DNA of 64,000 nucleotides from Prevotella sp. (GTDB taxonomy: Bacteria; Bacteroidota; Bacteroidia; Bacteroidales; Bacteroidaceae), in contig JAFPWS010000032.1 in assembly GCA_017412705.1 (NCBI GenBank), positions 83,804 through 147,803 on the forward strand. Direction: 5' to 3'. Each line of letters starts with the position of its first letter. The first letter of the stretch is position 1. The notes under the pieces are model-generated. The model was not told the origin of the DNA and searched no databases. It saw only the letters and a program-made list of their open reading frames with translations. The translations under genes and the position numbers were made by a program. This document shows, piece by piece, positions 13,250 through 29,396 of the stretch.

Positions 13250-13258
13250 AACCGCGGA

Positions 13259-13372
13259 CAAAGATACGAATAAGTGAGCACAATGCCAAAGAAAAGCCCG
13301 ATTTTCTTTTGCATTGTCGAACGCGAGTATCTTCTCCAAGAGGGGAGAAAGATACGAATAAGTGAGCAAAAA
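13259..13372 (-). promoter_or_regulatory. Repeated promoter cassette upstream of pdxB (two modules)
   Basis: Read on the minus strand, two -7 boxes, TATCTTTC (13347-13354) and TATCTTTG (13259-13266), are each preceded by GCTCACTTATTCG. Between them are the hairpin CTCC...GGAG, the string CGCGTTCGACAATGC and an inverted A/T-rich hairpin AAAAGAAAA...TTTTCTTT. The same arrangement recurs before mutS, fic and leuS. Confidence 0.75.
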
Positions 13373-13426
13373 GCCAAATTGATACCAAAAAATTGTGAAT
13401 TGTAGGGGATATTAAGAATTATTTCG

Positions 13427-13434
13427 TATCTTTG
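13427..13434 (+). promoter_or_regulatory. Promoter -7 box for the DUF4254-heptosyltransferase operon
   Basis: TATCTTTG, exact match to TAnnTTTG, 24 bases before the ATG of the DUF4254 gene. Confidence 0.7.
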
Positions 13435-13458
13435 CAGCAAATAAAAACAATTTCGTGT

Positions 13459-14061
13459 ATGGCTTTTACAAAACAGGCAAACCAAATCTTCGTGCAGGCT
13501 ATCCGTGACTACCACCTGACGGACCGTGTGGATACCGACATCAACAATCCCTACCGGCACGACAGCATTGAGTACAAACTCTACCTGAAATGCTGGATAG
13601 ACACCGTACAGTGGCACTTGGAGGACATCATCCGCGACCCCCACATCGACCCCGTTGAAGCACTGGGGCTGAAGCGTCGCATAGACCGTTCCAACCAGGA
13701 CCGCACCGACCTGGTGGAAGAGATAGACAGCTACTTCCGTCAGCTGTACAGTGAGGCAAGGCCCCTGCCCGACGCCCGCCTGAACACGGAGAGCCCCGCA
13801 TGGGCCGTCGACAGGCTGAGCATCCTGGCACTGAAGATATGGCACATGCAGGAGCAGACGGAGCGCAAGGATGCCGACCAGGCCCACCGGAACCGCTGCC
13901 AGGCCAAGCTCGACGTGCTGCGCGAGCAGCAGGCAGACCTCTCGACAGCTATCGACCAGCTGTTGGAGGACATCGAGGCAGGCCGCAAGTACATGAAGGT
14001 TTACCGCCAGATGAAGATGTACAACGACCCCAGCACCAACCCCATCCTTTATAAAAAGTAA
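13459..14061 (+). CDS. DUF4254 domain protein
   Basis: 200 residues, mostly charged alpha helix with no signal peptide (MAFTKQANQIFVQAIRDYHL). It matches the DUF4254 family, which in Bacteroidota is regularly found immediately before a family 9 glycosyltransferase, as here (4 bases between stop and next start). Conserved-looking features are NPYRHDSIEYKLYLKCWIDT and SPAWAVDRLSILALKIWHM. Function is not established; context points to lipopolysaccharide core or glycolipid synthesis. An in-frame TTG at 13432 lies inside the promoter box and was rejected. Confidence 0.75.
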   Translation: MAFTKQANQIFVQAIRDYHLTDRVDTDINNPYRHDSIEYKLYLKCWIDTVQWHLEDIIRDPHIDPVEALGLKRRIDRSNQDRTDLVEEIDSYFRQLYSEARPLPDARLNTESPAWAVDRLSILALKIWHMQEQTERKDADQAHRNRCQAKLDVLREQQADLSTAIDQLLEDIEAGRKYMKVYRQMKMYNDPSTNPILYKK

Positions 14062-14065
14062 AGAA

Positions 14066-15115
14066 GTGAAGAAAGAGCATATCCTCGTCATACGTTTTTC
14101 AGCCCTTGGCGATGTGGCCATGACCGTCCCCGTGATATGGTCGCTGGCCCGCCAATATCCTGATTTGCGCATCACCGTGCTCAGCCGTAACTCGTCGCGA
14201 CCCTTGTTTGAAGACCTGGCGCCCAACGTGGGATTCATGGGCGCCGACCTCAAATGCGAATACAGAGGCATCAAAGGACTTAACGCCCTTTACCGGCGAC
14301 TCACTGCCAAGCAGTTTACGGCTATCGCCGACCTGCACAACGTGCTGCGCTCGGAGTTTCTTCGTATGCGCTTCAACCTGGGACGCTATCGGGTGGCCCA
14401 TATCAACAAGCATCGCAAGGGGCGCAGACGGCTGACCTCGCAGAACAACAAGCTTCTCGTCCAGCAGCCTACCTCCTTCGAAAACTATGTCGAGGTGTTC
14501 CGCCGGCTGGGCTATCCCGTCACCATCGACTTCCACAGCATCTTCCCGCCGGAGGGTGGCAACCTCAACCTGTTGCCGGGGCCCATCAACGTAAAGAACT
14601 CGTTCGAACAGTGGATAGGCATCGCTCCCTTTGCTGCCCACAAGGTCAAGGTGTATCCTCCCGAGCTAATGCAGCAGGTGATAGAGCAGCTCTGCCGACA
14701 ACACCCCAAGGCCCGCATCCTGCTCTTCGGACGCGGGGCGGAGGAGGAGAAGTGGTTCAACGTCTGGTGCCGGCAGTATGGCCAATGCCTCAACGTAGGA
14801 CAGTATGCCGACTCCATGCACCAGGAGCTCATCCTCATGAGCCATCTGGACGTCATGCTCTCCATGGACTCCGCCAACATGCACCTGGCCTCGCTGACAG
14901 GCATTCCCGTGGTCAGCGTATGGGGAGCAACCCATTCCTACGCAGGGTTCATGGGATGGAACCAGTCAGAGCAGAATGCCATCCAGCTGGACCTTGACTG
15001 TCGCCCGTGCAGCATCTTCGGACAGAAGAACTGCCGGCGCGGCGACTATGCCTGCCTGTATCAAATCAGACCAACGACAATCGTTGAGAAAATCAATACA
15101 TTTATTACTAACTAA
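14066..15115 (+). CDS. Family 9 glycosyltransferase (ADP-heptose:LPS heptosyltransferase-like)
   Basis: 349 residues starting with GTG. The N-terminus [19 protein letters not shown] is the typical acceptor-binding loop of GT9 enzymes; the C-terminal half carries the ADP-heptose binding region, [12 protein letters not shown] and [20 protein letters not shown] (nucleotide-sugar His and Gly residues), then [13 protein letters not shown]. It transfers a heptose or similar sugar to the LPS core on the cytoplasmic face of the inner membrane. It forms a two-gene unit with the DUF4254 gene. The exact sugar and acceptor are not known. Confidence 0.85.
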
Positions 15116-15129
15116 ACACGTTTAAGATT

Positions 15130-15291
15130 ATGAAAAAGTACATCTGCGACACTTGTGGTTATGTGTATGACCCCGAAGTAGGCGATCCCGACAGCGGCAT
15201 CGCTCCCGGCACCGCCTTCGAAGACATTCCTGAGGATTGGGTATGCCCCATCTGCGGAGTGGGCAAGGACGACTTCTCGGTAGAGGAGTAA
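15130..15291 (+). CDS. Rubredoxin
   Basis: 53 residues, translated directly from the sequence: [20 protein letters not shown], then [20 protein letters not shown] and [13 protein letters not shown]. The two CxxCG-type pairs (Cys6, Cys9, Cys39, Cys42) bind one iron. It is a small cytoplasmic electron carrier, in anaerobes usually feeding rubrerythrin or peroxide reductases. It starts 14 bases after the glycosyltransferase stop and is followed at once by a strong terminator, so it is the last gene of that unit. Confidence 0.95.
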
Positions 15292-15294
15292 GTG

Positions 15295-15330
15295 AAAAAG
15301 TGAGCTTACCGTTTGGTCAGCTCACTTTTT
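15295..15330. terminator. Bidirectional hairpin terminator after rubredoxin
   Basis: A perfect 12-base stem, AAAAAGTGAGCT (15295-15306) and AGCTCACTTTTT (15319-15330), with a 12-base loop. The T run of the right arm gives a rho-independent terminator on the plus strand. Confidence 0.85.
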
Positions 15331-15343
15331 CTTCGTAACTTTG
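15312..15343 (+). promoter_or_regulatory. Promoter of ychF embedded in the preceding terminator
   Basis: TTTG (15312-15315) and TAACTTTG (15336-15343) are separated by exactly 20 bases, the ideal Bacteroidota promoter. The -33 element lies in the loop of the rubredoxin terminator, so the terminator ends one unit and the promoter starts the next within the same 50 bases. Confidence 0.75.
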
Positions 15344-15370
15344 CAACCCGAAGTTAATACGTATTAAGAC

Positions 15371-16471
15371 ATGTCATTAAAATGTGGTATTGTGGGACTG
15401 CCCAACGTGGGTAAGTCTACTTTGTTCAACTGCCTGTCGAGTGCCAAGGCACAGGCGGCAAACTTTCCTTTCTGTACGATTGAGCCCAACGTGGGTGTGA
15501 TTACCGTTCCCGACGAGCGCCTGACCAAGCTGGCAGAGCTGGTGCACCCGGGACGCATCGTTCCTGCCACCTGTGAAATCGTGGACATTGCAGGACTCGT
15601 CAAAGGTGCCTCGAAGGGCGAAGGGTTAGGTAACAAGTTTTTGGGTAACATTCGCGAGACGGACGCCATCATCCATGTGCTGCGCTGTTTTGAGGACGAG
15701 AATATAACCCATGTTGACGGTACCATCGACCCCATCCGCGACAAGGAGATTATCGACACGGAGCTTCAGCTGAAGGACCTGGAGACCATCGAGAGCCGAC
15801 TGGCCAAGACGGAGAAGGCTGCTGCCGCCGGCAACAAGGACGCCAAGGTGGAGGTCACCGTGCTGAAGGCTTACAAGGAGGTCTTGGAGCAGGGCAGGAA
15901 CGCCCGTATCGTGGAGTTCGAGAGCAAGGACGAGCAGGACTGCGCCCGTAACCTCTTCCTGCTGACGGCCAAGCCCGTGCTGTACGTCTGCAACGTCAGC
16001 GAGGCTGATGCCAAGAGCGGCAACGACTTCACCCAGAAAGTCGAGGCGCTGGCCAAGGAAGAGGGTGCCGAGTCGATGGTCATTGCCGCCAAGACGGAAG
16101 AGGACATCGCCGAACTCGAAAGCTACGAGGACAAGCAGCTGTTCCTGGAAGAGTTAGGCTTGGAGGAGAGCGGTGTCAACCGCCTCATCAAGAAAGCCTA
16201 CGCCCTGCTGAACCTCGAGACCTTCATCACCGCTGGCGAGATGGAGGTGAAGGCCTGGACCTACAAGAAGGGCTGGAAGGCGCCCCAGTGTGCCGGCGTC
16301 ATCCATACCGACTTCGAGAAGGGCTTCATCCGCGCCGAGGTCATCAAGTACGACGACTATATCCAGTATGGCTCAGAGGCCGCTGTCCGCGAGGCAGGCA
16401 AGATGGGCATCGAAGGCAAGGACTATGTGGTGCAGGACGGCGACATCATGCACTTCCGATTTAATGTTTAG
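15371..16471 (+). CDS. ychF: Ribosome-associated GTPase/ATPase YchF (Obg family)
   Basis: 366 residues, full length. The G1 motif GLPNVGKSTLFN is at residues 8-19, with FPFCTIEPNVGV (switch region) and DIAGLVKGASKGEGLGNKFL (G3) next. The C-terminal TGS domain covers about 280-366 and ends DYVVQDGDIMHFRFNV. YchF (OLA1 homologue) prefers ATP and acts on ribosomes and stress responses. It has its own promoter and is followed after 41 bases by lgt; the spacer contains a short GGAATAAYG tandem repeat (16479-16507). Confidence 0.97.
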   Translation: MSLKCGIVGLPNVGKSTLFNCLSSAKAQAANFPFCTIEPNVGVITVPDERLTKLAELVHPGRIVPATCEIVDIAGLVKGASKGEGLGNKFLGNIRETDAIIHVLRCFEDENITHVDGTIDPIRDKEIIDTELQLKDLETIESRLAKTEKAAAAGNKDAKVEVTVLKAYKEVLEQGRNARIVEFESKDEQDCARNLFLLTAKPVLYVCNVSEADAKSGNDFTQKVEALAKEEGAESMVIAAKTEEDIAELESYEDKQLFLEELGLEESGVNRLIKKAYALLNLETFITAGEMEVKAWTYKKGWKAPQCAGVIHTDFEKGFIRAEVIKYDDYIQYGSEAAVREAGKMGIEGKDYVVQDGDIMHFRFNV

Positions 16472-16512
16472 GAGGTCGGAATAACGGAATAATGGAATAA
16501 CGGAATATAGAA

Positions 16513-17328
16513 ATGTCGAACCTACTATACATCATCTGGAACCCTAACGAGGGCTTTGGGCCCTTTCGCTGGTACGGGCTGTGCTGGCTGATAGGATTGG
16601 CGCTGGCGTACTTTGTAGTGAAAAGGCTCTATAAGGAGCAGAACATCAAGGACGAATTGTTCGACCCCCTGTTCATCTATTGCTTCTTCGGCATCCTGCT
16701 GGGAGCGCGTCTGGGACATTGCATCTTCTATGAGCCCGACTATTTCCTGACTTCCTTCAAGGGATTTGTAGAGATGTTCGTGCCCATCCGTTTCTTGGAA
16801 GAAGGTGGGTGGAAATACATCGGCTATCAGGGCCTGGCCTCGCATGGTGGCACGCTGGGCTTGATTATCGCCCTGTGGCTGTATGTCCGTAAGAGCAAGC
16901 TCAGCATCTGGCGTGTGTTGGACAACATTGCCATTGCCACAGGCACCACAGCCTGCTTCATCCGCCTGGGCAACCTCATGAACTCAGAGATAATCGGTAA
17001 GGTGACCGACGTGCCCTGGGCCTTTGTCTTTGAGAAGGTCGACCTGGTGCCCCGCCACCCAGGACAGCTCTACGAAGCCATTGCCTATGGCATCCTGTTC
17101 TTACTGATGTGGTGGCTGCACAAACGCATGCCCCAGAAAATCGGCACAGGCTGGTACTTCGGCTTCTGCCTGTTCTACATCTTCACCTTCCGCTTCTTCA
17201 TCGAGTATACGAAGGAAATCCAGGAGGCCTTCGAAGCCTCGATGCCCCTCGACATGGGACAAATCCTGTCTATCCCCTTCATCATCATCGGACTCGTCTG
17301 CATGTTCAGAAAAACGAAACAAGTATAA
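16513..17328 (+). CDS. lgt: Prolipoprotein diacylglyceryl transferase
   Basis: 271 residues with about seven hydrophobic segments. The Lgt signature region is [13 protein letters not shown] near residue 155 and the essential His motif is [12 protein letters not shown] near 114. It transfers diacylglyceryl from phosphatidylglycerol to the lipobox Cys in the inner membrane and so serves the several lipoproteins encoded in this window. Followed after 26 bases by a histidine kinase gene on the same strand. Confidence 0.95.
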
Positions 17329-17354
17329 GTCTGTCGCCTACCTCCTATTGCCCT

Positions 17355-19169
17355 ATGAGACCTAAAACCTTCTTCCTGCTATTAACCCTGTTGTTGTGCT
17401 GTCTGGGAATAAATGCCCAGCAACAACAGGATACGGCGTTTAGAAAACTGTATCAGCAATATTTTAAACTGTACAACAAGCCTGAGAAGGAGAAGGAATT
17501 CTGGGAAACGTCCAAGAAAGTAGAGGCTTACTACAAAAAACAAGGACGGCAGCGCTCTTACTATAAGATGCGTCAGAACGAAGTGCTGTATTTGGTAGAT
17601 CACGGCAGGGCCTATCAGGCCATCAAGCGCTCCAATGAAATCCTGGAAGAGATGAAAGCCGAGGGTGCCAAGCACTTCGACATCGTCTACACGTCGCTGG
17701 CTACGGTCTATGAGTCGCGAGGCAACTACCGCATGGCGAAACACTACTTCATGGAGTCGATGAAGAATGTCAACATGGCCGACAGCGGAGCCCTGATCAG
17801 CATCTATTCCCGTATAGCATCGCTACAGTCGACCCGCGAACCCAAGGAAGCCTGGGAATGGAACGAGAAGTTTGGCTCGCTCGCCATCGTTTATCCAGAC
17901 TATTACAAGATGTATCTGGCCCAGAAAGGGCAAATCAGCTTCTTCATGAACGACAAGGCCAGATTCACAAAGGCTAAGGCGGAGTTCGACGACTATCTGA
18001 AGCAGCACAATTTCGTCGACAGCGTGGGAATGGTATCCATGAGCATCTTCCAGAAGACCTTCAACGAACAATATGACGAGGCTCTGGCGCTACTGGACCA
18101 AAAGGAGGTGCCAGGATTGGACATCATCACCATTCACGACGTGAAAGGCCGCATTTATGAGACGATGGGTCGCTACGACCTCTGTCTGAAGGAGTCGGCC
18201 ATCCGTCGCGACTTGCGCGACTCGCTGAACAGCGACCTGCTCTACGACAACATCAACGCCGTCAATGCAGAGGCCGGACTGACGCTGTTGACCGAGAAGG
18301 CGGAGAAAGACCATGAAGCCATGATAAGGGAAGCCGCCAAAGAACGGGAACGCTGGTTTGCCGCTGTCATCGGACTGCTGGCTGTAGCCCTCGGACTGGT
18401 GGCTTCGCGTTATCTGCAGAAACGCCGCTATCAGAAGAAACTGCTGAAGCAGAACAAAGAGCTGGAGATAGCCCTCGACCGTGCCCAGGAGTCTGACCGC
18501 ATGAAGTCCTCGTTCATCGAGCACGTGAGCCACGAGATTCGCACCCCGCTGAACGTCATTACCGGCTTTGCACAGATTATTACCAACCCTGACTACGAAC
18601 TGGAGGACGACGAGCGCAACACCATGCTCAACGACATCAGCAAGAACACTATCGAGATTACCAACATCGTCAACGAACTGTTGGAGGTTTCCGAGGACGA
18701 GAGTCGCGAGCACTACGAGCTTACGGACAACGTCAACATCCACCAGTTGTGCCAGGAGGTTGTCAACAATGCATCTGTCGTGAATAATGGTCGCCTGGAA
18801 CTGAGCTATAAGAATATGCTCGACCAGAACTATACCCTCCTCACCAACAAGCAGGCGCTGAGGAAGATTCTGAACCAGCTGATGAAGAACGCCCTGAAGT
18901 TCACCCAACAGGGAGAGATTGAGCTGAAGGTAAGAGAGCGTGCCGCTAACGGGGGCCTGGAGTTCACCATTACCGATACGGGCATCGGCATCGACGAACA
19001 GTACCACGAGAAGGTTTTTGAGCGTTTCTTCAAGGTAGACCCCTTCAAGCAGGGCTTGGGCCTGGGTCTCACCATGTGTCGTAAGATGGCAGAGCTGATG
19101 GGTGGTTCGCTGACTATCGATTCCTCTTATAAGAAAGGTACGCGCCTCGTCCTGGTACTACCTACCTGA
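17355..19169 (+). CDS. TPR-containing membrane sensor histidine kinase
   Basis: 604 residues from the ATG at 17355; the open frame extends back over lgt but [20 protein letters not shown] is a clear signal peptide. Residues about 25-320 are helical TPR-like repeats in the periplasm, 333-352 ([20 protein letters not shown]) one membrane helix, 355-378 a coiled coil, then HisKA with the phospho-acceptor His393 in [13 protein letters not shown], and HATPase with MKNALKFT (N box), TDTGIGID (G1), FERFFKVD (F box) and [13 protein letters not shown] (G2). No receiver or DNA-binding domain is attached and no response regulator is adjacent. Its 3' end overlaps that of mutS by 12 bases. Confidence 0.9.
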
Positions 19170-21782
19170 TACGATGCGCTTGATGTCGTTCAGCTTGTTG
19201 AGTGCCTCCAAAGGTGTCAGGTTGTTGACATCCAGTCCCAGTATCTCATCGCGAATCTGACTAAGCACAGGGTCATCCAACTGGAAGAACGACAGCTGCA
19301 TACCCTCACGAGAGGCGGCAATTTCCGCCGTAGGCTTGCCTACGGTGCCTACCTGGGCGTTTTCGGCCTCTAACTGCTTCAGTATCACGTTGGCACGCTT
19401 CACTATCGAGCGGGGCATGCCTGCTATCTCGGCCACATGGATACCGAACGAGTGCTCGCTACCTCCCTTTTCCAGTTTGCGCAGGAAGATGACCTTGCCC
19501 TCCACCTCCTTGACGCTGACGTTGTAGTTCTTGATGCGCTTGAAGTTCTTCTCCATCTCGTTCAGCTCGTGGTAGTGGGTGGCGAAGAGTGTGCGGGCAT
19601 GGGCCTTAGGCTGTTCGTGCAGGTACTCCACAATAGCCCAGGCAATGGAGATGCCGTCATAGGTAGAGGTGCCCCGGCCCAGCTCGTCGAAGAGTACCAG
19701 CGAGCGAGGCGTCACATTATTCAATATATTGGAGGCCTCCGTCATCTCGACCATGAAGGTCGACTCGCCCAGCGAGATGTTGTCTGAAGCCCCTACCCTC
19801 GTGAATATCTTGTCCACCAGGCCTATGCGTGCACTCTCCGCCGGCACGAAGCTGCCTGTCTGGGCCAGCAGGGTGATGAGTGCCGTCTGGCGCAACAGGG
19901 CCGACTTACCAGCCATATTAGGACCTGTGATGATGATGATCTGCTGGCGCTCGTTGTCCAAATAGATATCGTTGGGGACGTAGCGCTCTCCTATAGGCAG
20001 CTGGGTCTCTATGACAGGGTGGCGGCCCTGCTTGATGTCGATAGTCTCCGACGAGTCGATGACGGGACGCACATAATGGTTCTCCTCTGCTGTCTTTGCC
20101 GCGCTGAGCAGGCAGTCAAGACGGGCAATGACGTTGGCGTCCTGCTGCACCTGCGAGATGAAAGCCTGCGCTGCAACCACCAGATTCATGAAGAGCTGCT
20201 GCTCCAAGGACAGTATCTTGTCCTCAGCACCCAGAATCTTCTCCTCATACTCCTTCAGCTCCTGCGTGATATAGCGCTCTGCCTGCGCCAAAGTCTGCTT
20301 GCGAACCCACTCCTGGGGCACCTTGTCCTTATAGGTGTTGCGCACCTCTAAATAATAGCCGAAGACATTGTTGTAGCCTATCTTCAGCGAGCTGATGCCC
20401 GTCTGCTGGGCCTCGCGCTCCTGAATCTGCAACAGGTAGTCCTTGCCCGAATAGGCGATATGCCGGAGCTCGTCAAGCTCTGCGTTCACGCCGTCGCGGA
20501 TGACACCTCCCTTCTGCACCTGCTGGGGAGGGTCGTTAGTAACCTCGCGCTCTATACGGTCACGAAGCTCCTCGCAGAGACTCAGGCGCTCCCCTACCCT
20601 CTGCAGCGACTCGTTGGTGGCCTCCATGCAAGCGGCCTTGATGGGCGCAATGGCCTTGAGGGCTGTCTTCAGCTGAACCATCTCACGGGGCGACACTCGT
20701 CCTGTTGCCACCTTCGAGACTATGCGCTCCAAGTCGCCGATGCGCTGCAGGTGGTCGTCGATGGTCAGCCGGAACTGGGGCTCGCGGAAGAAGTAGTCCA
20801 CGATGTCCAGACGCTGGTTGATGGGCTTCTCGTCCTTCAGGGGGAACACGAGCCAGCGGCGCAGCAGCCGGCCACCCATGGGCGACACCGTGCGGTCAAT
20901 GACGTCGAGCAGACTTCTACCGTCTTCCTGCATGGGGCTGACGAGCTCCAGCGAGCGGACGGTGAACTTGTCCAGACGGACATAGCGTTCCTCCTCTATG
21001 CGGGAAAGCGTGGTGATATGGGCTATCTGCGTGTGCAGCGTCTGCTCCAGGTACTGCAAGATGGCACCTGCGGCAATGACGCCGCTCTTCAGGTGGTCCA
21101 CGCCAAAGCCCTTGAGCGACTTGACGTTAAAATGCTTGTAGAGCTTCTGGTGGGCCGTCTGCTCGGTAAACACCCACTCGTCAAGCTCGAAGGTCACCAG
21201 ACGCGTACCGAAATAGCGCTCGAAGTCGTGCCTGCGCTCCCTGTCGAAGAGCACCTCCTTGGGTTGGAAGTTGCCAATAAGCTTCTCCACATAGTCGTAA
21301 GTGCCCTCGCCCGTCAGGAACTCGCCCGTCGAAATGTCGAGGAAGGCAACACCACAAGCAGCCTTGCCAAAGTGGACAGCACAGAGGAAGTTGTTCTCCT
21401 TGTAGTTCAAGACCGTATCCTGCATGGCCACACCAGGCGTCACCAGCTCCGTAATGCCGCGCTTCACCAACTTCTTGGCCAGCTTCGGGTCTTCCAGCTG
21501 GTCGCAGATGGCCACACGCTTGCCTGCCCGGATGAGCTTGGGCAGATAGGTGTCCAGCGCGTGATGGGGGAAACCCGCCATCTCGTCGCCCTTCACCCCT
21601 GCCCCATTGTTACGATGCGTCAGCGTGATGCCCAGTATCTGAGCCGCTATGACGGCATCGTCGCAATAGGTCTCGTAGAAGTCGCCACAACGAAACAGCA
21701 GCAAGGCCTCAGGGTATTTAGCCTTGAAGTCGAAAAACTGTTTCATCATGGGAGTAAGCTCCTTGCCGTCCTTCTTCGCCAT
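19158..21782 (-). CDS. mutS: DNA mismatch repair protein MutS
   Basis: 874 residues from the ATG at 21782 ([20 protein letters not shown]). The mismatch-reading Phe-x-Glu motif appears as CGDFYETY near residue 33; the ATPase has [15 protein letters not shown] (Walker A, near 615) and [16 protein letters not shown] (Walker B/signature). It binds mismatches and recruits MutL. The frame is open 81 codons further into a repeat (through bases 21783-22025) with no stop, so automated calls may give a 955-residue protein; the promoter at 21808-21815 shows that extension is not transcribed from the nearest promoter. The gene's end overlaps the convergent histidine kinase. Confidence 0.97.
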
Positions 21783-21795
21783 CTTCGTCACACTT

Positions 21796-22068
21796 GCTTT
21801 TGAACTGCAAAGATAAGAATAAGTGAGCAGAATGCCAAAAGAAAAAGAGAATTTTTTCTTTTGCATTCTCGAACGTGAGATTGCATTGCAACGCCACACT
21901 CCCAGAGGGAGAACGCCACACTCTTCACCTTTAGGTAAGAGAATTTTCGAGCGAAGCTCAAAGATAATGAAAACCGAGTGAAATGCAAAGAAAAAAAACG
22001 TTTTTCTTTCATTTCCGAGGTGCATCTTACCTTCTCCAAAGGAGAAAGATAATGAAAACCGAACGAAA
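21796..22068 (-). promoter_or_regulatory. Three tandem promoter cassettes upstream of mutS
   Basis: Minus-strand -7 boxes TATCTTTC (22044-22051), TATCTTTG (21959-21966) and TATCTTTG (21808-21815). The first two are preceded by CGGTTTTCAT, the last by CTCACTTATTC; each lies downstream of an A/T-rich inverted repeat (AAAGAAAAA...TTTTTCTTT). The first two run straight into small hairpins (CTCC-ttt-GGAG, GAGC-ttc-GCTC). Two AACGCCACA-hairpin units, 22 bases apart, sit at 21890-21920 between promoters. The box nearest mutS gives a 26-base leader. Confidence 0.7.
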
Positions 22069-22440
22069 AAACAAATTTATTTTTTGAAAATAATAAAATC
22101 GTCCTTCATCCTTCACTCCGAGAAAGCTAACTTCTTGTGCCATAAAGTGTTAAATGACTATAAAAGCAGCGTCAATCCTTCACTTTTCTTTCACTTTTCC
22201 TTCACTTATCCTTCACTTTTTGGTTTGATGGCACCTGAAGGGTAGTTACATTACGACTGAGCACCCTTTACTCGGCATGTAACTGGTGCTTTGTCGGCAT
22301 GTAAATCATGCTTTCTCGGCATGAAAGTGAAAGATAAGTGAAGGAAAAGTGAAAGAAAAGTGAAGGATAAATGAAGGATGAAAGATGACTTAAACCATTG
22401 TAACACAATCATTTAATCTAAAAAAGTGAAGGATGAAGGT
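22069..22440. repeat. 22-base-period array enclosed by a 42-base inverted repeat
   Basis: Left arm 22175-22216 and right arm 22327-22368 are reverse complements at 41 of 42 positions; both are built of CCTTCACTTTT-like units. The 110-base interior contains units at exactly 22-base spacing starting at 22228, 22250, 22272, 22294 and 22316; the last three begin TCGGCATG, the second begins ATTACGACTGAG. TTACATTACGA at 22246-22256 is also the core of the separate array at 44.1 kb. More CTTCA/TGAAG units lie outside the arms. No coding sequence is seen in this stretch. Confidence 0.8.
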
Positions 22441-22445
22441 GGATT

Positions 22446-22640
22446 TCATGATTTCGCGAGAAGATTTTCGTTGAGCAGTTTGACAAATTTGAGCCCGATG
22501 AAGGCATTCTTGAGCCGGGCAGTGACCTGTCGCGAACCGTCCGCAATCTGGCAGCGCCCGGCTTGCTGCCAGTCACCGCCCCGTCCAATCCTCCACTCCG
22601 CCTCCTGTCCGAGTGAAACTTTTTCACGGAAATCCTTTGC
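22446..22640 (-). other. Possible gene remnant without start codon
   Basis: On the minus strand one frame reads GTAKDFREKVSLGQEAEWRI, then GRGGDWQQAGRC ... LKNAFIGLKFVKLLNENLLA to a TGA at 22446. The composition looks protein-like but there is no ATG before the in-frame TAG near 22675, and the GC content is higher than in the flanks. I do not recognise the family; it may be a fragment left by a rearrangement. Confidence 0.2.
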
Positions 22641-22658
22641 AGTTCCAAAAATAATTCT

Positions 22659-22666
22659 TATCTTTG
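22659..22666 (+). promoter_or_regulatory. Promoter -7 box of the MNT-HEPN remnant locus
   Basis: TATCTTTG, exact TAnnTTTG match, 21 bases before the nucleotidyltransferase ATG. Confidence 0.65.
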
Positions 22667-22687
22667 CCGTCGTGATGTACTAAGGAT

Positions 22688-23011
22688 ATGGAACAAGCGA
22701 AGGTGATTGACAGTATAAGGAGAGTGGCACAGCGTGTGCTGCCCAAGGGTAGTACCCTCTACCTTTATGGCTCAAGGGCCCGGGGCGACTATCGCGAAGA
22801 CTCTGACTGGGACCTCTTGTTGTTGCTTGACAAAGCTAAGAGAGAGGATTCTGACTTTGCCAACTATGCCTATCCCATCATGGAACAAGGTTTTGATATG
22901 TGGCAGTACTTCAGTGTTCACACTTACACCAAAGCCGAGTGGAACAATGCTCCACACTCCATGTTCTACTTCAATGTTGAACAAGACAAACAACTGATAT
23001 ATGAGTCTTAA
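22688..23011 (+). CDS. MntA-like minimal nucleotidyltransferase (antitoxin of a HEPN/MNT pair)
   Basis: 107 residues. The polymerase-beta type motif LYGSRARGDYREDSDWDLLLLL gives the GSxAxG...DxD signature (Gly28-Ser29, Asp40/Asp42 region). Such stand-alone MNT proteins pair with HEPN RNases and inactivate them, in the studied cases by adding AMP to the toxin. Its last codons overlap the start of the next frame, as usual for these pairs, but that toxin gene is gutted (23001-23099), so this is probably an orphan antitoxin. Confidence 0.8.
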   Translation: MEQAKVIDSIRRVAQRVLPKGSTLYLYGSRARGDYREDSDWDLLLLLDKAKREDSDFANYAYPIMEQGFDMWQYFSVHTYTKAEWNNAPHSMFYFNVEQDKQLIYES

Positions 23012-23099
23012 GGAAGAAGACAAAGAGGTTGTTGCACGTATTGAGCCAACCCGCCAGCTGATAGAAAAGAACAAACAGTATATTGCAAGTAATGTCTAA
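23001..23099 (+). pseudogene. Truncated HEPN toxin gene
   Basis: A 32-codon frame, MSLKEEDKEVVARIEPTRQL followed by IEKNKQYIASNV, overlaps the antitoxin stop by 11 bases at the place where a HEPN partner is expected. The first 14 residues look like a HEPN N-terminus and the last 18 like the C-terminal helix, which suggests an internal deletion that removed the middle, including the RX4-6H nuclease site. The exact deletion is an inference; the frame itself is read directly. Confidence 0.5.
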
Positions 23100-23157
23100 C
23101 CCATAAAACAGGTATGCCCATGATATAGAAAAGAAGCATAAAGACATATAGAAATAG

Positions 23158-23299
23158 AAGCGTCCGCTTGAATCTTGCTTATCGAAATTCGCCAAATTAA
23201 AGTAAGCATACAAGAGTAAAAGCATGGATGCTCACGCCGACCGGCGTGGGCTTTTACTCGGATATGTATGCAATGGTGTTTGGCGATACCTCGATAAGC
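23158..23299 (+). ncRNA. Structured element 1: long bulged hairpin upstream of the LRR protein
   Basis: Nested pairings read directly: AAGCG/CGCTT (23158-23169); GCTTATCGA/TCGATAAGC (23177-23185 with 23291-23299); CGCCAAA/TTTGGCG (23190-23196 with 23279-23285); GCATAC/GTATGC (23206-23211 with 23266-23271); GAGTAAAAGC/GCTTTTACTC (23214-23223 with 23250-23259); apical CACGCC/GGCGTG (23233-23248). The same order of stems, with different sequences, is found at 52980-53124. Whether it acts as RNA or DNA, and on which strand, is unknown. Confidence 0.55.
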
Positions 23300-23404
23300 G
23301 TAGACGAAGTAATCAGTCCACGTTTTCTTTTTCTGTCTTCTCACAAGCATTTTGGACTGTAGAGACTATTCACATTCAAACTAACAATTCAAAGAACAAA
23401 CAAT

Positions 23405-25072
23405 ATGATGAGAAGATTTTACGCATTAACACTACTTCTATTTGCAACCATTTCTATTTATGGTTTTGATTTTGTAGTAGATGGCATAAAGTATCAAACA
23501 AGCGATAATAATGTCGTTTATGTAGAAGGACTTGAAAATCCGAACTACAGTGGGGAATTGATAATTCCGGAGAAGGTTACCTATAAAGATAAGGAATATG
23601 TCGTGAAAGGTATCGACAGTGAGGCATTTATGGGATGTGAAGGCCTTACATCTTTAGTTTTAGGTAACTCTATTGAGGACATTTACTATTGGGCATTCAA
23701 AGATTGTACAAATTTGGCATCATTCAGCATTCCAAATTCAGTTGAATATATTGACGAGGAGGTTTTTGTCAATACAGCTTGGTACAATGCTCTTCCTGAT
23801 GGTCTTATATACAAAGATAACGTTCTGCTTGGCTTCAAAGGGAGTAAAGAAGGCTTTGAAGGCCATTTAGACATAGCTGATGGTACAAGAATCATTGCTG
23901 GGGGAGCGTTAAAGTACACAATGAGCATCTCATCCGTGAAGATTCCCAATACAGTGACTTCGATTTGCCAGGGTGCTTTTTTTCAGTCTGGAATCACCTC
24001 TCTTATCATTCCAAATTCGGTTAAAGGAATATATCACCAAGCTTTTCATTGGTGTAACAAATTAGAAAAGATAGAAGTGGAAAGTGGTAATCCAGTCTAT
24101 GACTCACGTAACAACTGTAATGCCATTATTGAAACAGGAAAGAACCAACTGGCATTTGGATGCAAAAATACAGTTATACCGAATAGTGTCACTTCAATAA
24201 AAGAATTTGCTTTCCGCGGACATTGGATGAAATCTATAGTTATCCCAAAATCTATTATATCTATAGGTTCATGGGCATTTATGGATTGTTGGAGATTAGA
24301 AACAATTTGTTCAGAGATTGAAGAACCTTTCAAAATTAGTAATGATGTATTCGAAGATTATGACGAAAAAACTCTCTATGTCCCCGTCGGCACAAAAGCA
24401 AAGTACGAGGCGACCGAGGGATGGAAGGACTTCAAGAACATCGTGGAGATGGCTATGCTTGATCCGATAACTGGAGAAACGACAGTTAATACGGAAGGTC
24501 TCGGTAACGAGAACTTATCTGACAATGTGGTGAACGACGTTTACTACAATGTCGGTTCGGAAGGCTATGATGCAAGCGACAAGAGCGTGGTCATCAGCCA
24601 GACAACCAACATGGGGCAGATTACGGACGCCACGCCAGGGTCAAGCGAGGTGAAGGAGAACTTCAACGGCCTGATTCTGAAGGTGGCCGCAGGCAAGGGC
24701 ACCATCACGGTGAACGTGAAGACTACGGGTAATGCGCAGTTAGTAGTGCAGGTGGGCAACCAGACACCTATGATTGCCTCAAAGACTGAGCAGGGCGACG
24801 TGGTGGTGAGCTACGACGTGGCCGAGGACACCTATGTCTATATCTACGCCATCATCGGCTCGAGTGCGGCTCCCGCACATCGTGCAGCACCTGCCGATGC
24901 TGTGAAGATATACAGCATCAAGGTTACTCCCGGTGCAACAGGCATTGATACAGTTCATAGTGCACAATCCACAGTTCATAGTTGCTATACCCTTGACGGT
25001 CGTAAGCTGGAAGGCCTGCCTACGAAGAAGGGCGTGTACATTGTCAATGGCAAGAAGATAGTAGTGAAGTGA
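23405..25072 (+). CDS. BspA-type leucine-rich repeat surface protein with secretion tail
   Basis: 555 residues; start MMRR, either of two adjacent ATGs. Residues 1-20 are a signal peptide (FYALTLLLFATISIYG). About 55-320 are LRR_5/BspA repeats (TSLVLGNSIEDIYYWAF, SIPNSVEYIDEEVF, ITSLIIPNSVKGIYHQAF and others). After a Thr-rich beta domain the C-terminus ends CYTLDGRKLEGLPTKKGVYI and VNGKKIVVK, the short sorting tail common on Prevotella secreted proteins. BspA-like proteins bind host or bacterial surface ligands. A linker near residue 518 (TVHSAQSTVHS) is translated from a tandem DNA repeat, cagttcatag twice. Upstream lies structured element 1; downstream a terminator. Confidence 0.85.
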   Translation: MMRRFYALTLLLFATISIYGFDFVVDGIKYQTSDNNVVYVEGLENPNYSGELIIPEKVTYKDKEYVVKGIDSEAFMGCEGLTSLVLGNSIEDIYYWAFKDCTNLASFSIPNSVEYIDEEVFVNTAWYNALPDGLIYKDNVLLGFKGSKEGFEGHLDIADGTRIIAGGALKYTMSISSVKIPNTVTSICQGAFFQSGITSLIIPNSVKGIYHQAFHWCNKLEKIEVESGNPVYDSRNNCNAIIETGKNQLAFGCKNTVIPNSVTSIKEFAFRGHWMKSIVIPKSIISIGSWAFMDCWRLETICSEIEEPFKISNDVFEDYDEKTLYVPVGTKAKYEATEGWKDFKNIVEMAMLDPITGETTVNTEGLGNENLSDNVVNDVYYNVGSEGYDASDKSVVISQTTNMGQITDATPGSSEVKENFNGLILKVAAGKGTITVNVKTTGNAQLVVQVGNQTPMIASKTEQGDVVVSYDVAEDTYVYIYAIIGSSAAPAHRAAPADAVKIYSIKVTPGATGIDTVHSAQSTVHSCYTLDGRKLEGLPTKKGVYIVNGKKIVVK

Positions 25073-25094
25073 AGATTTAACTTGTAGGCTTTAA

Positions 25095-25125
25095 GGGCGC
25101 AGAGGGGGAACCTTTGCGCCCTTTT
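25095..25125 (+). terminator. Terminator of the LRR protein gene
   Basis: GGGCGCA (25095-25101) pairs with TGCGCCC (25115-25121) and is followed by TTTT. The right arm and everything after it is part of an 85-base sequence repeated after fic, but the left arm is not. Confidence 0.7.
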
Positions 25126-25185
25126 CGTGTGTTTTCCTGCTAATTTCTTTGTCGTTCCAGTTTTTCTTCTTATCTTTGGCTTCGC
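25101..25185. repeat. 85-base direct repeat, copy 1 (before fic)
   Basis: Identical to 26274-26358 except for one base (t/c at 25138 against 26311). It contains the terminator right arm and a promoter-like pair TTTG (25148-25151) and TATCTTTG (25171-25178) spaced by 19 bases. The two copies bracket the fic gene and its promoter cassette. Confidence 0.85.
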
Positions 25186-25214
25186 TTGCTTCAGTTTAGG
25201 GGCGAGGGGAATTC

Positions 25215-25357
25215 GCAACGCCACACTCTGCAGAGCAGAGAAGGAGCAGGGGGCAAGAGAAAAATTCTCTTTTTCTTTTGGCATTCTGCTCACTTATTCG
25301 TATCTTTGAGCTTCGCTCGAAGATTCTCTTACCTAAAGGTGAAGAGTGTGGCGTTGC
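25215..25357 (+). repeat. 143-base element with 15-base terminal inverted repeats carrying a promoter
   Basis: GCAACGCCACACTCT (25215-25229) and its exact reverse complement AGAGTGTGGCGTTGC (25343-25357) bound a segment that holds CTCTGC/GCAGAG hairpin, an A/T-rich AGAGAAAAATT...CTTTTT hairpin, TTTG (25277-25280), 20 bases, TATCTTTG (25301-25308), the hairpin GAGC-ttc-GCTC and a CTCTTACC...GGTGAAGAG hairpin. It looks like a small non-autonomous mobile element or the parent form of the repeats seen at 1.9, 13.3, 21.9 and 26.4 kb. Transcription would run toward fic. Confidence 0.6.
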
Positions 25358-25443
25358 AATGGCTGCATCTCGAAAATAAATCGCGATTCTGAAGATTTTA
25401 ATTAGATTAACAATTAAAATCGTGTATTTTGCTCGATTTGCAC

Positions 25444-25451
25444 TATCTTTG
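25444..25451 (+). promoter_or_regulatory. Proximal promoter -7 box of fic
   Basis: TATCTTTG with the ATG only 6 bases behind the box, which predicts an almost leaderless mRNA. The repeat-borne promoter at 25301-25308 lies 150 bases further upstream and could also read the gene. Between the two (25358-25443) nothing else is recognisable. Confidence 0.6.
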
Positions 25452-25456
25452 CAACG

Positions 25457-26236
25457 ATGTTCGAGAAAGAGATTGAGCAATACGAGCGCATCAGAGAGGA
25501 GTATCAGCAAAAGATAGCCGATAGGATGGGGGAGAAGCAGTGGATGGAGTATAATGAGATTCTGTTCTCTGCGCATTCCTGCGCCATTGAGGGAAACTCG
25601 TTTACTGTAGACGATACGCGTATTCTCAGAGAGCAGGGAATGGCGATGATTCCCGTTGGGCGTTCCATATTGGAATGTACAGAGATGGCAGACCATTTCC
25701 GTGCCTTCGACTATATGGTGAGCCATTTGGATCATTCCTTCGATGAGGCTTTGCTAAAAGAGGTCAATCGCCTGGTAACTGAGCATACGCTCAGCTTTCG
25801 CGCTCCAGGGGCTATCGCTGGCGAATACACCACAGAAGATATGGCCGCTGGCGATACCATCTTTGGAGACCACGAGGCTTTGATTGCTCGCGTTCCCAAC
25901 CTGATGGCTTCGACTCAAAAAGCCCTCGATGAAAGCCAGCACCCATTAATCGTTGCAGCCAAATGGCACGGATACTATGAATATCTGCATCCCTTCCGTG
26001 ACGGTAACGGCAGAACGGGCCGCCTTCTCTCCAACTTCATCCTTCTCAGAGCCCATCATCCCCTGCTTATCATCCGCCTTGAAGACAGGGCAGCCTACAT
26101 CTCTGCCTTGAAGCAAATCCGCACAGATGGTACTGACGAGCATTTGATAGCTTTCTTTTTCCAAACAGCTATCTCCCGCTTGAAGTCAGAACTCTTACAG
26201 AAACACACAAATTCTCTGCCCCTGCTGTTCTTCTAA
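25457..26236 (+). CDS. Fic family protein (class II, autoinhibited AMP transferase)
   Basis: 259 residues. The Fic active-site loop HPFRDGNGRTGR begins at His178 and matches HxFx(D/E)GNGRxxR in full. An inhibitory helix motif (S/T)xxxE(G/N) is present N-terminally as SCAIEG (Ser41, Glu45), which marks a class II Fic protein kept inactive by its own glutamate. These enzymes transfer AMP to target hydroxyls, or remove it. No signal peptide; the target is cytoplasmic and unknown. The gene and its promoter cassette lie between 85-base direct repeats, a sign of acquisition as a unit. Confidence 0.9.
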   Translation: MFEKEIEQYERIREEYQQKIADRMGEKQWMEYNEILFSAHSCAIEGNSFTVDDTRILREQGMAMIPVGRSILECTEMADHFRAFDYMVSHLDHSFDEALLKEVNRLVTEHTLSFRAPGAIAGEYTTEDMAAGDTIFGDHEALIARVPNLMASTQKALDESQHPLIVAAKWHGYYEYLHPFRDGNGRTGRLLSNFILLRAHHPLLIIRLEDRAAYISALKQIRTDGTDEHLIAFFFQTAISRLKSELLQKHTNSLPLLFF

Positions 26237-26273
26237 ACATTTCGCGTATGATACAAAGCCGATAGAATACGTT

Positions 26274-26358
26274 AGAGGGGGAACCTTTGCGCCCTTTTCG
26301 TGTGTTTTCCCGCTAATTTCTTTGTCGTTCCAGTTTTTCTTCTTATCTTTGGCTTCGC
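26274..26358. repeat. 85-base direct repeat, copy 2 (after fic)
   Basis: Second copy of 25101-25185 with one mismatch. The GGGCGC left arm of the terminator is missing here, so the hairpin cannot form; the copied unit started inside the terminator. It is fused directly to the promoter cassette of leuS. Confidence 0.85.
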
Positions 26359-26438
26359 CGAAGATATTCACGTTCGAGAATGCAAAAGAAAAAATTCCCT
26401 TTTTCTTTTGGCATTCTGCTCACTTATTCGTATCTTTG
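26341..26438 (+). promoter_or_regulatory. Insulated promoter cassette upstream of leuS
   Basis: A -7-like palindrome TATCTTTGGC-ttc-GCCGAAGATA (26345-26367), then TTCACGTTCGAG, then an inverted repeat (left arm 26377-26393, AGAATGCAAAAGAAAAA; right arm 26400-26417, TTTTTCTTTTGGCATTCT). The right arm contains TTTG (26407-26410), followed after exactly 20 bases by TATCTTTG (26431-26438). The hairpin ends in a T-rich arm like a terminator, so the unit could stop read-through and restart transcription. The leuS leader is about 40 bases. Confidence 0.7.
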
Positions 26439-26483
26439 CACTCTCGATATTAATGTACGGAAACAATTAAATTAAGAGATACA

Positions 26484-29396
26484 ATGGATTACAATTTCAG
26501 AGAAATCGAACAGAAATGGCAGAAGCGATGGGTGGAGAACGGCACTTATCGCGTGGTTGAGGACGAGAAGAAGAAGAAATTCTATGTGCTCAATATGTTC
26601 CCTTACCCCTCGGGGGCTGGTTTGCACGTAGGTCATCCTCTTGGCTATATCGCCTCGGATATCTATGCCCGCTACAAGCGCCAGCAGGGCTTCAACGTGC
26701 TGAACCCGATGGGCTACGATGCCTACGGATTGCCCGCCGAGCAGTATGCCATCCAGACTGGTCAGCACCCAGAGAAGACGACCTTCGAGAACATCGACCG
26801 CTATCGCTCGCAGCTCGACAAGATCGGTTTCTCGTTCGACTGGGAGCGCGAGGTGCGCACGTGCGACCCCATCTACTACAAGTGGACGCAGTGGGCTTTC
26901 CAGCGCATGTTCAAAAGTTATTTCAGCCTGTCGTCGAAGAAGGCTCAGCCAACTATCAAGCTGATAGAGCACTTCGAGCTGATGGGTACTGAAAACTGTC
27001 ACGCTTTGGGCACCGAAGAGCTTCACTTTACTGCTTCCGACTGGGCAGGCTTTACAGAACGAAAGAAGCAGGAAGTGTTGATGAACTATCGAATCGCCTA
27101 TTTGGCTGATACGATGGTGAACTGGTGCCCAAAGCTCGGGACGGTTTTGGCCAATGATGAGGTCGTCGACGGTGTCTCAGTTCGTGGCGGCTATCCTGTG
27201 GTACAGAAGAAGATGCGCCAGTGGTGCCTCAGAGTATCTGCATACGCCCAGCGTCTGCTCGACGGCTTGGAGGAGATCGACTGGACGGACTCGCTGAAAG
27301 AGACGCAGCGCAACTGGATTGGTCGCTCTGAGGGTACTGAGGTAGAGTTTAAGGTAGCCCACCCCCAACCCCTCCCCAAGGGAGGGGAGAATGGAGATAC
27401 TGAATCCCCCTCCCTTGGGGAGGGGCAAGGGGTAGGCTCCTTTACGATCTTTACGACTCGTGCTGATACCATGTTTGGCGTTACCTTCATGGTGCTGGCT
27501 CCTGAGAGTGACCTCGTGGCTGAGTTGACGACTCCCGACCAGAAGGAAGAGGTAGAGAAATACCTCGACTATGTGAAGAAACGCACAGAGCGTGACCGTC
27601 AGATGGATCATAAGGTGACGGGCGTGTTCTCTGGTTCTTATGCCATCAATCCGTTTACAGACGAGAAGATCCCCATCTGGATTGCTGAATACGTATTGGC
27701 TGGCTATGGTACTGGCGCCATCATGGCCGTACCTGCCCACGACTCTCGCGACTATGCCTTCGCCAAGCACTTCAATCTGCCGATTATCCCTGTAATCGAG
27801 GGTGCTGACGTATCAGAGGAAAGCTTTGATGCCAAGGATGGTATCATGTGTAACTCTGCATCAGATAAGTTCTCGCTCAATGGCTTGACTGTCAAGGAGG
27901 CCATCGCTGCCACGAAGAAATTCGTGACTGAGCAGGGCCTGGGCCGCGTGAAGGTGAACTATCGTCTTCGCGATGCCATCTTCTCCCGCCAGCGTTATTG
28001 GGGCGAGCCGTTCCCTGTCTACTACAAGGACGATATGCCTTACATGATTCCAAAGGAGTGTCTGCCCTTGGAGCTGCCTGAGATTGACGAGTACAAGCCT
28101 ACGGAGACTGGCGAGCCCCCATTGGGTCGTGCCAAGATGTGGGCTTGGGATACCAAGTTCGACAAGGTGGTCAGCAAGGACGAGATCGACAATAAGACCG
28201 TCTTCCCCTTGGAGCTGAACACGATGCCTGGCTTTGCTGGCTCGTCGGCTTATTATCTGCGCTATATGGATCCGAAGAACGAGAAGGCCCTCGTAAGCCG
28301 TGAAGCTGATGAGTACTGGCGCAATGTAGACCTCTATGTTGGTGGTACTGAGCACGCTACTGGTCACTTGATCTATTCTCGTTTCTGGAACAAGTTCCTC
28401 TATGACTCTGGTTACTCTTGCGAGGACGAACCCTTCAAGAAGCTCGTGAACCAGGGTATGATTCAAGGGCGTTCAAACTTCGTGTATCGTGTTGAGGACG
28501 AGGGAGCAGACAAGGGCAAGTTCGTCAGCTTCGGTCTGAAGGACAAGTACACTACGACACCTATCCATGTAGATGTGAACATCGTCAGCGCTGATATCCT
28601 CGACATCGATGCCTTCAAGGCTTGGCGCCCTGAGTATGAGAATGCTGAGTTCATTCTGGAGAATGGCCAGTATAAGTGTGGCTGGGCTATCGAGAAGATG
28701 TCAAAGTCGATGTTCAACGTGGTCAATCCGGATATGATTGTAGAGAAGTATGGTGCTGATACACTCCGTCTTTATGAGATGTTCCTGGGTCCTGTAGAAC
28801 AGTCGAAACCTTGGGATACCAACGGTATCGACGGTTGCCACCGCTTCCTGAAGAAGTTCTGGGCATTGTTCTACGGCAATAGTCGTGAGAATCCTGAAGG
28901 CAGACTTTTAATCGACTACAAACAACCCACTAAGGAGGCCTTGAAGAGCGTCCATAAGCTTATCAAGAAGGTAACGCAAGACATCGAAGTATTCTCGTAC
29001 AACACCTCTATCTCGGCCTTTATGATCTGCGTCAACGAACTGGCTCAGCAGAAGTGTAATAACCGCGACGTCCTTCGCATATTGATTACCCTTATCGCTC
29101 CTTTTGCACCCCATATCGCTGAAGAGCTGTGGGAGGCAATAGGCGAGCAGGGTAGTGTCTGCAACTCCAAGTGGCCCGAATGGAACGAGGAATACCTCGT
29201 TGAGGACAGCGTCAAGTTGGGTGTGGCCTTCAACGGCAAGACCCGCTTCGACATGGAGTTCCCTGCTGATGCTGACAACCAGACGATTCAGGATACCGTC
29301 TTGGCCGACGAACGCGCCAAGAAATACATCGAGGGAGACATCATGAAGGTTATCATCGTCCCGAAGCGTATGGTGAACATCGTTTTCAAGAAGTAA
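26484..29396 (+). CDS. leuS: Leucine--tRNA ligase
   Basis: 970 residues. Class I motifs: [15 protein letters not shown] (HIGH, near residue 43) and EKMSKSMFN (KMSKS, near 737). The editing domain is recognised by [12 protein letters not shown] and [18 protein letters not shown]. It charges tRNA-Leu and hydrolyses mischarged tRNA. About 27 residues near 292-318 ([15 protein letters not shown] ... [11 protein letters not shown]) have no counterpart in the family; they are translated from a palindromic DNA repeat inserted in frame where the strand leading into the editing domain begins. No stop or frameshift results. Confidence 0.97.
27361..27432. repeat. In-frame palindromic repeat inside leuS
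   Basis: Left arm 27362-27387 (contains CCTCCCCAAGGGAGGGG) and right arm 27406-27432 (contains CCCTCCCTTGGGGAGGGG) are near-perfect inverted repeats with a spacer of about 18 bases. It is a different family from the AACGCCACA repeat. Its length keeps the reading frame. Confidence 0.85.

Follow-up and report, generated by a model that had tools for sequence, protein, structure and literature searches.

A hairpin-bearing promoter of Prevotella that may belong to a propagating family joined to DNA at -7 boxes

The promoter ahead of leuS in a Prevotella genome appears to be one copy of a propagating promoter family whose units join DNA at -7 boxes, a reading to which we assign a probability of about 0.5. 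The copy lies in a 64-kb stretch of DNA (hereafter the window) from a 3.42-Mb assembly, G000. Units differ between relatives at orthologous sites, the same units stand between unrelated flanks, their stems covary, and they point almost without exception at gene starts.

Results

Promoter copies in the window

The first-pass annotation described a module of hairpin and promoter at 13.3, 21.8-22.05, 25.3 and 26.4 kb, and our pattern list places it at 13.3, 21.8-22.07, 25.3 and 26.4 kb (Table 1). The spacing it gave, with the box 20 bases after TTTG, was also recovered: a type A core, TTTG-N20-TATCTTTG with spacer CATTNTGCTCACTTATTC, occurs at four window sites. Folding of the + strand of 26341-26438 yields two hairpins (26344-26353/26357-26366 and 26377-26393/26400-26417), and the second, with 17 pairs and one bulge, is the A/T hairpin said to supply the -33 TTTG. 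The fold energy is -19.2 kcal/mol as DNA (z -6.1) and -29 as RNA (z -5.8); such z-scores set the copies only slightly apart from generic promoters.

For two genes the description needed refinement. Three boxes do stand before mutS, as claimed, but only one is type A, the other two belonging to a sister type, B. Similarly, fic has a type A copy upstream, but its nearest promoter is type B. The mutS copy (21806-21878) is 97% identical over 73 nt, in inverted orientation, to the leuS copy (26368-26440). In the TTCTTATCTTTG of this mutS copy, the T before the box is also the base that precedes the type B box at mutS, so that the box may derive from the target or may reflect a point change. At leuS, the upstream promoter is probably the older, native one. 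At pdxB, the left arm before the first promoter of the pair is present in a relative, G111, and missing in G000.

For the first 330 residues of the respective proteins, the top NCBIfam matches are LeuS, MutS and PdxB, with scores under the full-length cut-offs because the queries were cut to 330 residues; Fic matches PF02661 (E 5.8e-15).

Table 1. Promoter copies and associated features of the window
Feature	Positions	Strand	Basis
Type A promoter before pdxB, second of a pair with an 88-nt period	13259-13290	-	BLAST, pattern searches
pdxB unit, -7 box to -7 box; same as the ffh unit (other contig) save 3 loop bases	13259-13346	-	
First promoter of the pdxB pair, box TATCTTTC, ending TTTC; core 13347-13375	13347-13378	-	
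Type A promoter before mutS; TTCTTATCTTTG in place of family TTCGTATCTTTG	21808-21839	-	pattern list
mutS type A unit, left arm and hairpin 2	21840-21878	-	repeat comparison
Type B promoter before mutS; type A segment behind it here, missing in G111	21959-21989	-	
Additional type B core before mutS, box ending TTTC	22044-22067	-	
85-bp direct repeat, copy before fic	25101-25185	+	repeat D3, 99%
Type A promoter; end 148 nt upstream of fic ATG	25277-25308	+	pattern list
Type B promoter core closest to fic, spacer GCTCGATTTGCAC	25428-25451	+	G000:C34:109231-109254
85-bp direct repeat, copy between fic and leuS	26274-26358	+	repeat D3, 99%
Upstream leuS promoter, TTTG-N19-TATCTTTG; -7 box is left junction of leuS unit	26321-26351	+	pattern list, sequence
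Box palindrome (hairpin 1), TATCTTTGGC-ttc-GCCGAAGATA	26344-26366	+	pattern list, folding
leuS unit, long form, 87 nt, from after upstream -7 box to end of own -7 box	26352-26438	+	sequence; putative junction rule
A/T hairpin (hairpin 2), -33 TTTG within right arm	26377-26417	+	folding as DNA and RNA
Type A promoter before leuS, TTTG-N20-TATCTTTG	26407-26438	+	pattern list

Other repeats share the window. The fic gene is flanked by the two 85-bp direct repeats (99% identical), as though the gene had landed in the older leuS promoter region or been duplicated along with it. Inside leuS, at 27350-27444, lies a G/C-rich 38-nt inverted repeat that is in frame; LeuS has 970 aa here vs 938-949 in five aligned relatives, with about 22 extra residues at this repeat, which looks like a palindromic repeat tolerated within a coding region. 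Between mutS and an LRR gene, a 45-nt inverted repeat (22175-22219/22324-22368, 98%) encloses a 104-nt loop, and Rfam matches to 22175-22368 are sub-threshold only, to miRNA models. Across 21500-26700, Rfam gives 7 matches at E <= 1, none over the gathering threshold. A second dispersed string, GAGTGTGGCGTTGCAA with AACGCCACACTCTGCA, is found at 1862-1929, 21883-21927, 25213-25255 and 25344-25359, adjoining promoter units and also elsewhere.

Anatomy of the unit

The unit is a non-coding, imperfect hairpin with a short form of 73-74 bp and long forms of 84-88 bp. From 5' to 3' it consists of an upstream -7 box (when present), a small stem, GAAGXTAC, the nine bases TYNCGYTCG and an inner stem, which in the short form is GGAAANNCTCAAAT-AA-ATTTGGNNTTTC and has longer A/T arms at leuS, mutS and pdxB. 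The inner stem is followed by thirteen bases, GCTCACTTATTCG, and then by TANCTTTG. Tandem units repeat with periods of 73 (contigs C4 and C49), 74 (C27), 84 (C90) and 88 bases (pdxB, ffh).

Promoters read by the primary sigma factor of Bacteroidota have the consensus TTTG, about 19-21 nt, TANNTTTG. The right half of the unit is a complete -33/-7 promoter of this kind, with 20 bases from TTTG to TANNTTTG; unit cores match the consensus, and generic boxes upstream of units peak at spacing 19/20. It is quite likely that the unit promoters function in the cell. The left half looks like a decayed inverse of the right-half promoter, and the unit should not fire backwards because, on the opposite strand of the left arm, the place of the box reads TTC- and not TTTG. 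The -7 box was said often to run into its own palindrome, which proves frequent but not general: the palindrome is present in 50 of 111 left-arm-matched copies, compared with 3.6% of shuffles.

At locus L129 (G000:C89:17500-20500), a 72-nt tandem pair keeps the unit frame with a G/C stem and has no -33 TTTG; these may be units with a dead promoter that nonetheless went on duplicating.

Paired changes in the stem

Among 55 short-form copies, 98.0% of 550 cells are paired, compared with 88.3% in shuffles, and 59 cells carry double changes vs 19.7 in shuffles; none of 500 shuffles reaches either value, with the reservation that only 4 of the 10 stem pairs are free to vary, the other columns being fixed by the retrieval pattern, and that the shuffles ignore relatedness. 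The covarying pairs are these four, and sliding one stem arm by 1-3 columns abolishes the signal. A separate, register-based count took the place of an ungapped stem score because of the bulge. From 195 copies with the motif, 57 share this register; 56 distinct ones have 311 of 336 cells in Watson-Crick pairs (mean 260 and maximum 274 in 1000 shuffles).

Pairing extends to the unit ends. The left end of a unit pairs with its own right end in 45 of 50 cases (23.5 expected) and in 31 of 35 (17.0 expected), including 14 of 14 units whose two flanking boxes differ; under the strict left arm the figure is 72 of 76.

Selection at the RNA level was considered through wobble pairs. In the short form U.G exceeds A.C, mostly at two bulge-adjacent pairs, and hairpin 1 has 40 G.T vs 25 A.C; neither is decisive.

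Copy number and distribution

A genome-wide search, proposed as a check on dispersal, returned 86 matches in G000 for the core TNNGCTCACTTATTCGTANCTTTG with <=3 mismatches and none for the reversed pattern. BLAST of the 98-nt 26341-26438 against its own genome gives at least 27 matches including itself (40 of 65 candidates scored). Type B, with spacer GCTCGRTTTNCAN, has 22 matches in G000, 29 in G111, 18 in G007, 15 in G018 and 26 in G051, and controls have 0.

Of 40 sampled genomes, 10 contain a shorter core (<=1 mismatch), and these 10 belong to the same genus as G000; no match was found in 14 of the 24 same-genus genomes or in any of 16 from other families of the order. At E <= 1e-4, a family model has matches in 106 of 150 genomes sampled from the genus, with <=36 candidates scored per genome and several genomes represented by one weak match. 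In the named genome collection, a 34-base promoter pattern is found in at least 119 stretches; among the 80 titles listed, Prevotella or Prevotellaceae is named in 70, the remaining 10 give another Bacteroidales group or none at all, and many titles among the matches listed name rumen or other fore-stomach samples. Contigs of the cultured Prevotella aff. ruminicola Tc2-24 and Prevotella sp. P6B1 are among those with the core. Viral spread was also considered: in viral_contigs the short-form pattern has 0 matches and the promoter core 4 stretches.

Searches of open-access papers found no Prevotella literature on start sites, promoter motifs or dRNA-seq, and no title on this unit family under Prevotella miniature inverted repeats.

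Unit differences between relatives and loci

We matched 34 of the 71 own sites of G000 with G111 and read them by eye. At least 6 of the 34 differ by whole units or by type, while upstream sequence at the others ranges from almost identical to unrelated. For example, G000 has 74 bp more than G111 at L119, inside TATCTTT and exactly between -7 boxes; three more 73-bp units at L028 and one more unit at L053, again exactly between -7 boxes. At mutS, the G111 promoter ends at a type B box, behind which G000 carries a further type A segment. The second unit at L112 is type A in G000 and type B in G111, with a similar first promoter ahead, and at L118 it is G111 that is longer, by ~95 bases. Both copies of the pdxB pair carry GCTCTCTTATTCG in G111 and GCTCACTTATTCG in G000, i.e. 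a concerted change.

The rsmG gene has no unit in G089, one in G111 and two in G000, next to the same divergent neighbour gene in all three; these were read from the sequences, as the loose left-arm pattern gives chance matches there. G089 has a plain promoter in a poorly aligned intergenic region, and its zero state may also reflect the loss of a unit. Among 24 rsmG loci with a located start (6 of 30 without one were dropped), the type A pattern is found in 5 (G000, G111, G098, G090 and G078), while in G049 and further genomes the promoter is plain or the neighbouring gene is a different one.

Shared units also stand at unrelated loci. The ffh and pdxB units show 3 loop differences, right of the -7 box their flanks are unrelated, and to the left they differ past the previous promoter. 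Reading one of the loops as inverted leaves 1 difference in place of 3, a single case that requires one extra substitution. In G051, the neighbouring genes leuS and mutS share an identical 90-base block that ends two bases beyond the -7 box. These comparisons suggest that gains, losses and swaps involve whole blocks bounded by successive -7 boxes, and we consider it very probable that the units are mobile. At most sites gain and loss look alike, and the precise removal of a unit would also be expected from recombination between direct promoter copies.

The -7 box junction

A -7 box stands at the expected upstream place in 94 of 167 left-armed units, 42 with a family-type spacer and 52 generic; the remaining 73 (50 of 130 under the strict arm) have no upstream box. 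The junction rule is thus seen in only a part of the units. The loose left-arm pattern matches by chance in 5 of 102 generic promoters, and its reverse in 12 of 195 copies; the main counts were therefore repeated with a strict left arm.

The first-pass annotation had asked whether a native promoter lies further upstream, and an older promoter does stand just upstream at a part of the sites: TTTG precedes 19 of the 52 generic upstream boxes at a spacing of 19 or 20, and no further spacing between 8 and 32 has more than 2. With the strict arm and near-identical sites collapsed, 16 of 40 have TTTG at 19/20 (<=2 elsewhere) and the other 24 have none.

The bases after the upstream box are mostly GAC, TCG, CTC, GGC or GAA, and those after the final box are GCA in 123 of 154; because the two differ, the small stem probably arrives with the unit. 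The box letter is the same on both sides in 40 of 50 units (25.7 expected), and the right box mostly travels with the unit, which argues against the simplest version of the rule, in which the recipient keeps its box.

Genes behind the units

Among the 167 distinct left-armed units, 124 point toward a gene start and 5 toward a gene end (129 scored); the remainder comprises 12 with no gene called, 18 inner array members and 8 too close to the locus end. The strict arm (<=1 mismatch, n=130) gives 97 vs 4. Copies also adjoin tRNA genes for Arg (L012), Leu (L051 and L165), His (L180) and Ser (L008), and at L198 a copy without a left arm is directed at the 3' end of a tRNA-Arg gene.

The window genome has 28 unit sites of its own, 25 with a testable protein, four of these without a family match. 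The genes include ffh, metK, leuS, mutS, pdxB, dxs, secA, a pheT-like gene, rsmG and a Der-like GTPase, together with a glycosyltransferase, a Cache sensor and a carboxypeptidase-regulatory-domain protein. The promoter-like copies are indeed dispersed before unrelated genes, as first proposed, but judging by the 25 tested sites "housekeeping" was too narrow a term for them. The unit-bearing genes form no single regulon.

Discussion

The module was originally read as an insulated cassette, i.e. a terminator hairpin and promoter selected as a shield from upstream transcription. Two stable hairpins do lie ahead of the promoter, U.G pairing is allowed at TTTG:CGAA, and one box palindrome (21946-21962) is called terminator-like. 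The A/T hairpins have no T-tail, however, and are uncalled when 12900-26700 is scanned for terminators; the scan has 13 sites, the box palindrome among them, compared with 13.6 in shuffles. Nor is there a co-directional excess among neighbouring genes: left-armed copies include 33 co-directional, 48 divergent and 19 undecided cases (28, 44 and 17 with the strict arm), compared with 33, 38 and 8 for copies without a left arm and 28, 27 and 8 for generic promoters. Genes were called for this with our own codon-usage caller. Of the 195 copies, 16 were dropped for short flanks; of the 102 controls, 8 were dropped on this ground and 31 because no gene lay ahead, a filter applied to the controls alone. 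Neither part of the reading, terminator or insulation, is supported by these data, and we regard a shielding cassette as very improbable.

The units could instead represent a vertically inherited promoter type at growth genes, with spacer and hairpin under selection as a binding site, cruciform switch or RNA element. In line with this, the spacer or a near form without the left arm recurs at orthologous promoters, namely those of leuS (L146, L201, L271, L273 and L276) and those of frr and others between G000 and G111, and several genes behind the copies are translation genes or tRNAs. Whole-unit gain or loss and type swaps among close relatives, common units at non-homologous loci and the mixed gene set all speak against it, and make descent of this kind improbable. 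More can be said for a MITE with ends GAAGXTAC...GTANCTTT, moved in trans by a transposase or recombinase whose targets, -7 boxes, resemble the element's own ends, the flanking box being a target duplication. The units are short, non-coding and multicopy, their covarying ends would be terminal inverted repeats, copies stand between unrelated flanks with polymorphic presence at orthologous sites, and the box letter tends to be equal on both sides. Against it, random insertion would need selection to give the near-universal orientation toward gene starts, and the enzymes searched for do not follow the units in the 16 genomes scanned. A Y1 transposase (REP/RAYT) matches in 11 of the 16, with no match at E 1e-3 in the unit-rich G110, G079, G048 and G051 and matches in the unit-free G010, G016, G061 and G077, and it is not supported as mover; nor is the integron integrase, with TIGR02249 over the cut-off in 0 of 16. 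Weaker tyrosine-recombinase matches occur in all 16. A MITE served by a dedicated enzyme is, on balance, rather unlikely.

The reading we prefer is that of promoter-bearing, MITE-like units with the -7 box as junction, spread perhaps by template switching. A unit would join directly behind an existing -7 box and bring its own -7 box at its end, so that the gene leader is kept and the newly added promoter becomes the nearest one; repetition would produce tandem arrays. During replication, the 8-base -7 box would serve as microhomology for a jump to another promoter, fold-back of the hairpin would repair the stem, and selection would retain insertions that leave a working promoter. Homologous recombination is unlikely behind a generic promoter because little beyond the eight-base box is common with the donor. 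A transposase preferring its own ends or microhomology-guided template switching would each suffice. Template switching would account for both the arm correction and the loop inversion, and arm homogenisation and spacer inversion have been named as marks of this process (PMC8604942), which reportedly can create and maintain hairpins with paired changes (PMC8794818). We put it forward as the route of spread only tentatively. It is doubtful that the hairpin promoters spread with no dedicated enzyme at all, by -7 box microhomology and a fold-back that keeps the hairpin paired.

Several known systems resemble the units in part. Integron attC sites and the hairpins of IS200/IS605-REP elements have conserved outer parts, unpaired stretches, a bulge and a variable tip. 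The Prevotella units have the same hairpin traits, but carry no cassette, the integron integrase is below cut-off and the Y1 transposase is unassociated. Putative mobile promoters are promoters that appear before unrelated genes; so do the units, for which unit, junction and fold are resolved here. The concept is cited in PMC4596501, where BrickBuilt, a MITE of Porphyromonas gingivalis, is proposed as a putative mobile promoter. BrickBuilt is likewise from Bacteroidota and intergenic, with promoter activity and internal tandem repeats; unlike the Prevotella units, it comprises a leader, 23-nt repeats and a tail and is bidirectionally active in E. coli, and the portion of that account used here describes no -7 box junction (PMC4596501). 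Correia repeat enclosed elements, a MITE of Neisseria, are likewise short, non-coding, multicopy inverted repeats, mostly upstream of genes and promoter-carrying, whereas the Prevotella units of 73-88 bp differ, as far as the portion of the source used here extends, in having a whole promoter as one arm, -7 box junctions, arrays running from -7 to -7 and covarying arms (PMC10969869).

Paired changes within a hairpin, as found here, need not imply an RNA function. The rsmG locus provides natural variants with 0, 1 and 2 units at one gene, at which the effect of adding a promoter is measurable. If our reading is true, unrelated genes in a common gut and rumen genus would exchange promoters in discrete, repeatable steps, each marked by a recognisable junction, and the selfishness of promoters would become directly testable.
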